DNA of 39,408 bases from Treponema denticola (GTDB lineage Bacteria > Spirochaetota > Spirochaetia > Treponematales > Breznakiellaceae). Both the position numbers and the translations under genes were made by a program. This document shows, piece by piece, positions 35,898 to 39,408 of the stretch. Numbering within the stretch: the first letter of the stretch is position 1; each line of letters begins with the position of its first letter. The stretch covers positions 1 through 39,408 of the forward strand of contig DYPP01000001.1 in the NCBI GenBank assembly GCA_020719845.1, given 5' to 3'. The notes beneath the pieces were generated by a model. It saw nothing but the letters and a program-made list of their open reading frames with translations, ran no database searches and was not told where the DNA came from.

Positions 35898-37460
35898 GTG
35901 CCGATAAAGTTCGCTCCTTTTTTACAATCATGGCTTGCTCCCGGAGAAAACGGAGCCGGCAGTCTGTCCGTCCTGCCCGTCGCCTTTCTTTTCGGCGCCG
36001 TCGGTGCCGTCCTGCTGCTGGCTATCCTCCGCGGCGTCGCCGTCGGCTGGACGCGGGACCCCGCCCTGCCGGGACGGCGGGAAATCCGGTTCTGCGCCGC
36101 CCTGGCCGGGGTATTGGTGCTTTTCGGCTTGCTCCATCCACTGGCGGCGGGTTTTGGGCTGGCCATGGGCTGGGCGGGATCGCTGGTCGGTTCCATCGGC
36201 GTGACTGTTTTTCTGGTTTGCCGGGCCATCGACTTGCTGCTGGAACGTTCCGGCGTCGCCGTCGGCCGGGTATCCCTGATGGTTCTGCTTCTCGGCGGCC
36301 TCGCGGCGGGTCTTCCGGTCCTGGGCCTGGGAGACGCGGGTACCATGATGGTTTCCCTTTCCCTGCTGTTGGGGCTGGGGTTCTTGGCCTACGCCGTGGT
36401 CCTTACCCTGGGCAAGAAACAGGCTGGACGGTTGTTTGCTTTCTCAGCCCTGTGCCTGGCGGTAAACGGTGCGGTGTTTATTCCCCACCCCCTTGCGCCG
36501 GGCGCGGTCATGACGCTTCTGGTCGCTCTAAGGCTCTTACTGGACCGTTCCGTTTTGCCCGAACCGCTCGCGGTCCCGGCGGCCTTGCCGCCGGCGGAAT
36601 TGCCCGCGCTTTCCGACTATGTGGATCAGGTCTCCATCTCCCTGACCCGGTTCATCCCCAAAGAATTCCTGGCCATCCTGAACAAGCCCAATTTTACCGA
36701 CCTGCGCCTGGGCGACCACGTCAAGAGCGACATGACCATCTTCTTCTCCGATATCCGGCAGTTCACCAACCTGTCCGAGGGTCTGACGCCGGAAGAAAGC
36801 TTCAAGTTCATCAATTCGTACCTGGCGCGCATGGTCCCGGTCATCAACAGCTGCGGCGGCTTTGTGGACAAATACATGGGCGACGCGGTGATGGCCCTCT
36901 TTCCCGCCAAGGGCGGCGCCGACGCGGCGGTGCGGGCGGCCATCGAGATGCAGCAAAAAATCATCGAATACAACTCGCACCGCGCTAATTCCGGCTACCG
37001 GCCGCTTTCCATGGGTATCGGTCTGCATACCGGGACCTTGATGCTCGGGGTGGTCGGGGTTGAGGACCGGATGCAGAATACGGTCATTTCCGACGCCGTC
37101 AACCTGGCCAGCCGGTTGGAGAGCATCACCAAGGTGTTCCGCATCAGTCTGGCGATCAGCGAAGAAACCTTCAAGAATCTGGAAGACCCGGGAGCCTACC
37201 TGTACCGCTTCATCGGCAAAGTGCGGGTCAAGGGGAAGTACGAACCCGTGTCGGTTTTCGAGATTTTCGACGGGATCAACCCGGAAATGCTGTCCCGGAA
37301 AATGAAGGCCAATATTTTCTTCGAGCAGGGTATGCTGAGCTATTACCAGAAGGATTTTTCCGGCGCCATGTACAATTTCCGCAAGGTACTGGAGATCATG
37401 CCCGAAGACGGAGCGTCGGCCTTTTATCTGGACAACTGCATGGCCAAAGTCCGTACGTAG
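35898..37460 (+). CDS. Membrane-bound class III adenylate cyclase with TPR tail
   Basis: The 520-residue protein has an N-terminal membrane part (about 10-205, with roughly six segments) and a class III cyclase domain (about 265-435). Metal-binding aspartates are in FFSDIRQFT and YMGDAVMALF; the Lys in DKYMGDA and the Asp in ISDAVN favour ATP over GTP; the transition-state Asn and Arg are in AVNLASRLE. A C-terminal segment (about 465-515: FEQGMLSYYQKDFSGAMYNF) looks like a TPR repeat. It probably makes cAMP. The start is a GTG at 35898 without a clear ribosome site. Spirochaetes encode many such cyclases. Confidence 0.9.
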   Translation: MPIKFAPFLQSWLAPGENGAGSLSVLPVAFLFGAVGAVLLLAILRGVAVGWTRDPALPGRREIRFCAALAGVLVLFGLLHPLAAGFGLAMGWAGSLVGSIGVTVFLVCRAIDLLLERSGVAVGRVSLMVLLLGGLAAGLPVLGLGDAGTMMVSLSLLLGLGFLAYAVVLTLGKKQAGRLFAFSALCLAVNGAVFIPHPLAPGAVMTLLVALRLLLDRSVLPEPLAVPAALPPAELPALSDYVDQVSISLTRFIPKEFLAILNKPNFTDLRLGDHVKSDMTIFFSDIRQFTNLSEGLTPEESFKFINSYLARMVPVINSCGGFVDKYMGDAVMALFPAKGGADAAVRAAIEMQQKIIEYNSHRANSGYRPLSMGIGLHTGTLMLGVVGVEDRMQNTVISDAVNLASRLESITKVFRISLAISEETFKNLEDPGAYLYRFIGKVRVKGKYEPVSVFEIFDGINPEMLSRKMKANIFFEQGMLSYYQKDFSGAMYNFRKVLEIMPEDGASAFYLDNCMAKVRT

Positions 37461-37526
37461 AGCCGGCTTTTACCGCCGGATTCAACTTCAAGACCGATCT
37501 TTCCGATACATTCATAGGCGGGATTG

Positions 37527-38429
37527 GTGAAAGTATTCATTCTGAGCGACAAACACGATGTTCCCAAGGCAAAAACCCTTTTGGCTTTGATGCGCACCCT
37601 GGAAATGGACGCGGCGGGTTTTTATGTCGGACCGCGCTGGCGGGCTGAAAAACGGCGCCTGGACGAAATTATCGCCCCGGCTACCCATTTTGTCGTCGTC
37701 TATTCGGAAAACAGCATCGCCAGCTCCTGGTTGGCTTTTTTGGCCGGATACGCGCTGGCCTCGGGCAAAGTCCTGCTGCTGTACCGGCCCTCCCGCTATC
37801 CCGGTCAAGCGCCCTTTTTGGCGCCCTTCTTTTTGGTCCTGTCCACCCAGGATCTGGCCGACTTTCTGCGGATCGAACGCCGGGAATGGGAATCCGTCAA
37901 CAGGCGCAGAAATGCCCGGGAAGCATTGCTGGAACGGGGACTCTCCTTCCGGGGAGCGGCGTTCGCCGACGCGATTGCCGAAGGCGATACGGAGGCGGCG
38001 GACCTGTTCGTCCAGGCCGGGTTGCCTCCGGATACGCGGGACAAGAAAGGCGTGCCCGTCCTCTGCCTGGCCGCCCGCACCGGAAATCGGGCGGCGGTGC
38101 GCCTTTTGTTGGCCGCCGGCGCCAACCTGGACGCGCCGGCGGAAGACCGGGGCAATTCGGCGCTGATGGACGCGGTGGCGGCGGGGCACCGCCAGATCGT
38201 GCACGATCTGATCGAGGCCGGCGCCGACGTCAACCTGCAGAGCAAAGACGGACAGAACGCCCTGGTGATCGCGGTGGGCAAAAATGACCCGGATTCCACC
38301 CGGCTGCTGCTGGAAAACGGCGCCGACGCGGACAGCCCGGACAAATTGGGTTTTACCGCCCGCAAATACGCCGCGCTGTTCCACAATGCCGAGATCGTTG
38401 CCCTTTTTGACTCCCGTCCATCCGTATAG
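37527..38429 (+). CDS. TIR-like domain protein with ankyrin repeats
   Basis: Residues 1-115 resemble a TIR/TIR-2 fold (VKVFILSDKHD, then HFVVVYSENSIASSWLAFLAG and YALASGKVLLL). In enzymatic TIRs the WxxxE-type position holds the catalytic Glu; here it reads WLAFL, so NAD cleavage is doubtful. Residues 140-295 contain four to five ankyrin repeats (GNRAAVRLLLAAGANLD, GHRQIVHDLIEAGADVN), a protein-binding platform. I use the GTG at 37527; a TTG at 37524 would add one residue. The protein could be a cytoplasmic scaffold or a signalling adaptor. Function is unknown. Confidence 0.82.
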   Translation: MKVFILSDKHDVPKAKTLLALMRTLEMDAAGFYVGPRWRAEKRRLDEIIAPATHFVVVYSENSIASSWLAFLAGYALASGKVLLLYRPSRYPGQAPFLAPFFLVLSTQDLADFLRIERREWESVNRRRNAREALLERGLSFRGAAFADAIAEGDTEAADLFVQAGLPPDTRDKKGVPVLCLAARTGNRAAVRLLLAAGANLDAPAEDRGNSALMDAVAAGHRQIVHDLIEAGADVNLQSKDGQNALVIAVGKNDPDSTRLLLENGADADSPDKLGFTARKYAALFHNAEIVALFDSRPSV

Positions 38430-38483: not shown

Positions 38484-39408
38484 ATGACAACCATCGTGTT
38501 TTCAGGCGGCGGCACCGGGGGCCATATCTACCCCGGGCTGGCCGTCGCGGCGGCGCTGCAAGAAAAAATGGCTTGTCGGTGCGTCTGGATCGGGTCATCC
38601 CAGGGAATGGACCGGGAAATCGTCCAGGCCGCGGGCCTTGACTTTTTCGGCGTGCCTTCGGGAAAATTCAGACGTTATTTTTCGCTCCGCAATATCACCG
38701 ACTTTTTCCGCATCGGCGCCGGATTTTTTGTAGCCCGCAGTTTGTTGAAGCGGCTGAAGCCCGATCTGCTATTTTCAAAAGGCGGTTTTGTCAGCGTACC
38801 CCCCTGCGCCGCCGCCGCCTTCCTGGGTATTCCCGTCTTTACCCATGAATCGGACTTTAGCCCCGGACTGGCTACCCGCATCAACCTCCGTTTTGCGGAG
38901 CGGGTGTTCACCGCCTACGCAGAGACGATCGCCGCCCTGCCGCCGGCCCAACGCGGCAAAGCAGCGACCACGGGAAATCCGGTTCGCAGTGATTTCCGCA
39001 CTGCCGATGCCGCCCGGGGCCGCGCTTTCTTGGGGCTCGGCAGCCAGGATCGGATTCTGCTCGTGCTCGGGGGCAGCCAGGGCGCCCGTCAGGTAAATGA
39101 GCTGGTCGTCGGCGCCTTGCCTCGCCTGCAGCGACACTACGTGGTTGTCCACCAGACCGGGACGGATACGACAGGGATTCCACCTTCGTCCGCACGCTAC
39201 CGGCCGTACGCCTATATCCGGAGAGAGATGCCGGATGTACTGGCCGCGGCGGAACTGGTCGTCGGCCGTAGCGGCGCGGGCACGGTATGGGAAGCGGCTA
39301 CCCTCGGCAAGCCGCTGGTGCTCATACCGCTGGCCGGCGCCGGCACCCGGGGGGACCAGGTGGAAAACGCCGAATATTTCCGGAAAGCCGGGGCGGCGGT
39401 CGTCCTTT
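38484..39408 (+). CDS. murG: UDP-GlcNAc transferase MurG (partial, runs off window)
   Basis: MurG adds GlcNAc to lipid I to make lipid II for peptidoglycan. From the ATG at 38484 the frame stays open for 308 codons to the window end. Motifs are GGGTGGHIYPGLA (N-terminal glycine loop), LFSKGGFVSVPP, HESDFSPGLA, LGGSQGARQVN and GRSGAGTVWEAATLGKPLVLIPL, followed by GDQVENA. The family usually has about 355-370 residues, so roughly 50 are missing. HESD replaces the HEQN seen in E. coli. Confidence 0.95.
   Translation, partial: MTTIVFSGGGTGGHIYPGLAVAAALQEKMACRCVWIGSSQGMDREIVQAAGLDFFGVPSGKFRRYFSLRNITDFFRIGAGFFVARSLLKRLKPDLLFSKGGFVSVPPCAAAAFLGIPVFTHESDFSPGLATRINLRFAERVFTAYAETIAALPPAQRGKAATTGNPVRSDFRTADAARGRAFLGLGSQDRILLVLGGSQGARQVNELVVGALPRLQRHYVVVHQTGTDTTGIPPSSARYRPYAYIRREMPDVLAAAELVVGRSGAGTVWEAATLGKPLVLIPLAGAGTRGDQVENAEYFRKAGAAVVL

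Follow-up and report, generated by a model that had tools for sequence, protein, structure and literature searches.

TIR domains of bacteria have been studied as NAD-consuming enzymes of immunity or virulence. Their catalysis relies on one glutamate, which PMC10022894 describes as needed in all TIRs examined. A TIR fold without this residue is found in the animal receptor IL-1R8, whose TIR domain served, according to PMC9318647, as a Glu-less negative control. Here we describe a spirochaete gene family in which a TIR-like domain, likewise without the Glu, is joined to ankyrin repeats; IL-1R8 is an animal receptor, and the likeness is one of analogy. Literature searches of open-licence PMC text returned no paper that we recognised as treating this TIR-ankyrin family. 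The present analysis adds that the missing Glu is fixed across the family, that its nearest relatives bear the Glu, and that conservation is concentrated on the ankyrin face.

The gene was analysed within a window of 39,408 nucleotides, meaning the whole stretch of DNA under study, and its parts and neighbours are listed in Table 1. A TTG at 37524 represents an alternative start, and the ATG start of close relatives aligns with the GTG. The stop codon of the upstream cyclase is followed by 66 bases, the TIR-ankyrin gene, 54 further bases and murG, all on the forward strand. Just past the window end (L114, G000:C88 from 38400), a run of N, corresponding to a gap or a masked stretch, breaks the murG frame.

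Table 1. Features of the TIR-ankyrin locus, in window positions
Feature	Position	Strand	Description or evidence
TIR-like + ankyrin-repeat protein gene	37527..38429	+	300 aa, GTG start, TAG stop
TIR-like alpha/beta domain, residues 1-106	37527..37844	+	AlphaFold models; Foldseek/VIA matches; profile match to canonical TIRs
W68-L-A-F-L72-A-G74 motif around the probably lost catalytic Glu	37728..37748	+	Alignment to canonical TIR_2 and to W-x-x-aromatic-E-x-G TIRs
Leu72 codon, where TIRs have their catalytic Glu	37740-37742	+	Within the W68-G74 motif
Long helix joining TIR-like and ankyrin parts, residues 107-136	37845..37934	+	Secondary structure of the model
Five ankyrin repeats, residues 143-295	37953..38411	+	Pfam, model and conservation
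Class III adenylate/guanylate cyclase, upstream neighbour	35898..37460	+	PF00211 E 1.1e-23; lineage-specific neighbour
murG, downstream neighbour, runs off the window	38484..39408	+	TIGR01133 264.8 bits, cut-off 250.25

A sequence-only reading of the window had proposed a TIR-like domain followed by four to five ankyrin repeats, and both the feature and its two-part organisation were confirmed. The ankyrin part matched Pfam Ank_2 (E 1.3e-26, 93.4 bits, cut-off 27.3), and the full-length AlphaFold model, built with 56 family members (mean pLDDT 96.9), contained helix pairs at residues 143-163, 178-196, 212-230, 245-263 and 278-295, which sets the number of repeats at five. With tandem repeats above the Pfam cut-off and in the predicted fold, the protein belongs to the ankyrin-repeat proteins. 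It shares with these and with DARPins a five-repeat solenoid (Z about 25 over 153-161 residues).

Because ankyrin proteins filled the full-length fold search, the TIR-like part was modelled alone. The model of residues 1-134 (31 members, pLDDT 95.3) adopted a TIR-type fold, as the sequence-only reading had expected. Its top Foldseek matches were a Bacillus cereus TIR (8fz9) and EcThsB (8wcf), with E 1.3e-3 and probability 1.00, and the TIR matches also included ThsB, BtpA (4lzp) and SARM1 (E about 1e-3 to 7e-3). A 2'-deoxyribosyltransferase (6evs) was among the best Foldseek matches as well, and enzymes of this type were among the best rows against a viral structure library (E about 1e-3). In the VIA comparison, the 2'-deoxyribosyltransferase 7o62 ranked first (Z 12.6, 110 aligned, rmsd 2.1), tied with the SPARTA TIR-APAZ 8ifl (Z 12.4, 116 aligned, rmsd 2.6) and with 8fz9 (Z 12.1, 118 aligned, rmsd 3.0); TIR rows had Z 11-12.4 and receiver domains Z 11.5. 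With the three folds within about 1 Z of each other, the fold alone does not separate TIR from its neighbours, and the assignment rests mainly on sequence profiles.

At the sequence level, the Pfam TIR_2 match to the N-terminal part was weak (E 0.03-0.05, 15 bits vs a cut-off of 28), as was a PADLOC match to ThsB (E 0.002). A profile of 31 family TIR parts aligned with 11 canonical TIR_2 domains over residues 1-90 with probability 95.5, a value obtained by hhalign on one template and not a database-wide probability. Searched over 199 genomes sampled from an acidobacterial phylum, the family TIR-part profile gave five matches; three pass the TIR_2 cut-off, a 50-residue piece (L183) scores 22 bits, and the fifth is without a Pfam match. 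Within the window's own order, the same profile found one canonical TIR (L198). The nearest outside relatives of the family profile are canonical TIR_2 domains (PF13676; Thoeris ThsB, 8fz9), which share with it the fold and the W-x-x-aromatic-x-x-G motif. The nucleoside 2'-deoxyribosyltransferases (7o62, 6evs) resemble the window protein in overall fold; unlike them, it showed no PF05014 match in a Pfam search up to E 5, and the matches of the family profile in other genomes are TIRs. The domain is thus placed in the TIR superfamily on its flavodoxin-like, five-strand fold (model, Foldseek) and on sequence profile. A comparison of the TIR part with PDB sequences was discarded, giving chance matches only (a beta-lactamase at E 0.2, and Src at E 1.3 with the profile).

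The claim that a Leu in WLAFL occupies the position of the catalytic Glu was also borne out. In the profile-profile alignment, Leu72 sits opposite the Glu carried by 11/11 canonical TIR_2 domains. In the first alignment (window plus 57 spirochaete loci), this column is filled in 56 of 58 rows, with A 17, V 12, L 10, I 7, F 3, S 3, T 2, M 1 and Y 1, and Glu is absent from all 56. The wider set, counted as distinct TIR stretches at E 1e-2, comprised 101 sequences with A 24, V 21, L 14, I 14, F 14, M 4, T 4, S 3, Y 1, one gap and one Glu (L198); six loci outside this count (L080, L082, L084-L087) were judged in the first alignment only. Two or more ankyrin hits were present in 100 of the 101 frames, and L198 is both the sole ankyrin-less and the sole Glu-bearing frame. 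Accordingly, none of the 99 ankyrin-bearing members with a residue at this column has Glu, a further member showing the gap, and 91 of the 99 have A, V, L, I, F or M. The missing Glu is a fixed trait of the family, which lacks the conserved helix C Glu that marks catalytic bacterial TIRs.

Four of the five acidobacterial relatives read W-x-x-aromatic-E-x-G, aligned without a gap to the family W-x-x-F-x-x-G. As the nearest relatives carry the Glu and the alignment is gapless, a loss within the TIR-ankyrin family is the simpler reading, and the catalytic residue was probably lost there. Canonical TIR_2 domains differ from the family in carrying the Glu, in contrast to its Glu-less, ankyrin-fused and apparently vertically inherited members. 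The window protein also differs from Thoeris ThsB, a Glu-bearing TIR encoded next to thsA, in lacking the Glu and in adjoining murG and a cyclase. The canonical TIR at L198 438-836 (G124:C3), a 176-aa open frame scoring 46 bits against TIR_2, has the motif W-V-P-F-E-I-G and no ankyrin repeats; its genome also holds a Glu-less TIR-ankyrin gene (L219). In the acidobacterial L182 (about 800 aa, frame around 1501-1704), two motif-like stretches were observed, LFELGY with the Glu and AFVAGL without it, the second possibly representing another, independent loss.

The two parts of the protein are conserved to different degrees, at 2.37 bits for the ankyrin part vs 1.38 bits for the TIR-like part. Identity to the window was higher in the ankyrin part in 55/55 rows, and the TIR-like part had a median identity of 23%, a variation strong enough that some of it may be only spacer. 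Alignment A1 sampled 24, A2 16 of 30 members, and A4 31, while A3 comprises the window and 55 of 57 loci, the partial L077 and L081 being left out. Ankyrin-only matches (L092, L093-L113) were also left out; L093-L113 and L002 were kept as a generic-repeat control. Partner-facing positions were assigned by us in a register taken from designed ankyrin proteins, following the DARPin numbering, and reached 2.95 bits vs 2.89 for the framework, with R184, D207, K240, Q243 and G251 invariant and R208 at 98% (weighted). In the generic repeats (n=166, other loci), the same positions reached 1.34 vs 2.49 bits for the framework, in a control whose loci had been selected by the presence of two ankyrin motifs and aligned locally, which biases it at repeat positions 1-3. 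Unlike DARPins and other ankyrin proteins, in which these positions are variable, the family keeps them conserved, which suggests a conserved partner. Two pairs had a usable dS in both parts, and in these selection is purifying throughout, with dN/dS of 0.20 and 0.37 in the TIR part and 0.09 and 0.06 in the ankyrin part. The TIR part is saturated in dS in the three other pairs, and saturation makes dN/dS of the closest trio mostly useless.

Taken together, we consider it reasonably probable that the gene encodes a cytosolic, non-enzymatic adaptor in which a Glu-less, TIR-derived domain is combined with ankyrin repeats that bind a conserved spirochaete protein. The N-terminal domain would descend from a TIR domain of the NADase type and would have lost its Glu before the gene spread through the spirochaetes, so that NADase activity is presumably gone, as judged from sequence. 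The TIR-like domain may now be a structural, association or spacing module, a role suggested by analogy with non-catalytic TIRs such as IL-1R8. From the conservation pattern we infer that the five ankyrin repeats would grip the conserved partner through the usual concave and finger surface, on which R184, D207, R208, K240, Q243 and G251 are the residues kept. Of the options raised by the sequence-only reading, the non-enzymatic one is supported by structure prediction and by the family-wide Glu survey.

The gene neighbourhood was compared across 79 distinct loci after removal of exact repeats. The murG and cyclase neighbours pointed out in the window are indeed present on the same strand, but the weight given to them holds only in part: murG lies within 200 bases downstream in 16/79 loci and the cyclase just upstream in 6/79, and a DnaE-type polymerase gene occupies the upstream position, on the same strand, in 17/79 loci of several families. 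Other neighbours included queA (downstream in 5/79) and rodA (upstream in 1/79). No neighbour is universal, and murG and the cyclase are lineage-specific. Since the neighbours differ between lineages, no single pathway is indicated. A conserved membrane-protein ORF, which we label LHPF, was found just downstream in 7/79 loci and at any distance in 13, for example in L066 (7536-8324), L067 (6761-7540), L177 (7385-8146) and L179 (5867-6556), outside the Treponema-type families. It was rejected as an obligate partner, being present in 9/20 genomes checked; groups f1 and f3, to which 10 of the checked genomes belong, the window's among them, gave no LHPF match at all.

The DnaE neighbour suggests that the two genes form an operon in several spirochaete families, and the protein could then be a subunit or regulator working with an accessory DnaE in mutagenesis or translesion synthesis, the polymerase being its possible ancestral operon partner. 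In four loci (L022, L066, L072, L162), the end of the DnaE match touches or overlaps the gene, and in all seven DnaE-linked genomes checked the neighbour is a second and shorter DnaE, with a longer one encoded elsewhere in the genome. We regard this role as unlikely, however, as the Treponema putidum genome keeps the TIR-ankyrin gene with one DnaE match, and both the window's genome and Gracilinema bin74 have their accessory DnaE apart from it, behind a Y-family-like polymerase ORF. As an obligate partner, the accessory DnaE was rejected on the evidence of T. putidum. Examples of the DnaE-type gene directly upstream are L066 2978-6888 (4-base overlap) and L176 4331-8335 (reverse strand). In L115 (G000:C25, 1667-6673; window's genome) and L116 (4031-9224, reverse; Gracilinema bin74), a three-gene run of DUF72-like, Y-family-polymerase-like (both named by eye) and short DnaE genes resembles a mutasome cassette.

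The sequence-only reading had also considered a TIR relative with a different activity, and the domain could accordingly be a TIR- or deoxyribosyltransferase-like enzyme whose activity or catalytic residue is a different one. The fold it has in common with nucleoside 2'-deoxyribosyltransferases is compatible with this, and candidate residues were observed in H54, kept in 43/56 rows, and E117, on the long helix, kept in 40/56. Among the polar and charged residues of positions 1-106, however, none is retained by more than 43 of the 56 aligned members, and the Glu column is filled by the mostly hydrophobic set described above. Moreover, 2'-deoxyribosyltransferases likewise use a Glu. An enzyme of this kind is therefore improbable, and a non-enzymatic adaptor is preferred.

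A function in cell-wall elongation, together with MurG, RodA or MreB, would agree with the downstream murG and with the arrangement in G013 (one contig, 1,139,633 bases), where the gene lies 25 bases behind ORFs resembling mreB-mreC-mreD-pbp2-rodA (names by eye). Most loci have neither neighbour, however, rodA adjoins the gene at a single locus, and co-directional neighbours alone are no proof of function, so that we give this explanation little credence compared with an adaptor for a conserved partner.

At E 1e-30, the full-length profile matched 121/191 genomes in the order to which the window belongs, and 117/180 among genomes with completeness of 90% or more and contamination of 5% or less. 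A single match was present in 119 of the 121 carriers, the second matches of the other two being ankyrin-only. In 70/191 genomes of the order no match reached this threshold, which makes the gene look dispensable to some lineages. Among the carriers with names are Treponema putidum, T. porcinum, Candidatus Marispirochaeta associata and metagenome-assembled genomes assigned to Gracilinema and Treponema. The TIR-part profile alone matched 64/392 genomes of the phylum, a lower bound since it misses divergent members, and each of these belongs to the window's class or to a closer taxon. In a tree built from 75 loci that bear group codes, which does not contain the named loci L035-L092, L174-L176 and L198, six taxonomic groups require 5 changes, the minimum possible. 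No family match was found in 50,697 phage and 72,556 plasmid records. By contrast, canonical TIR_2 is patchy, occurring in 12/98 genomes of the family-rank taxon. From these sequence comparisons, the gene appears to be old, essentially single-copy and vertically inherited. A TIR that acts against phages as sensor or decoy, or as a host-directed effector (TcpB/BtpA type) disturbing host TIR signalling, could be imagined from the TIR-like fold, the weak ThsB match and the host-associated treponemes among the carriers, but is highly improbable for a near single-copy gene that tracks taxonomy, stays off phages and plasmids in the records searched and is distributed unlike the sporadic canonical TIR_2, the more so as many of the carriers were assembled from metagenomes and bear isolate names that sound environmental, and no signal sequence was seen by eye in the window protein.

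Beyond the adaptor role itself, we tentatively put forward, as a possibility rather than an expectation, a bacterial family of pseudo-TIR adaptors outside immunity. A TIR domain would have been taken over early in the spirochaete class, would have lost its Glu and been inherited vertically, with the ankyrin grip serving a partner in a core process such as replication and repair or cell-wall growth; the gene behind the rodA-like cluster of the 1.14-Mb treponeme would be included. If true, bacteria of many spirochaete families would use TIR in a manner that is neither catalytic nor mobile, comparable to the TIR adaptors of animals. An unannotated spirochaete gene would gain a testable role, and its invariant ankyrin residues point to the putative partner site.

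By gene order, the TIR-ankyrin gene of the 1.14-Mb treponeme (G013) may correspond to Treponema pallidum TP0502. The ORF that follows it (L173 8455-9018) resembles by eye L115 60-644 and L116 10068-10676, which precede the accessory-DnaE cassette of the window's genome and that of Gracilinema, respectively.
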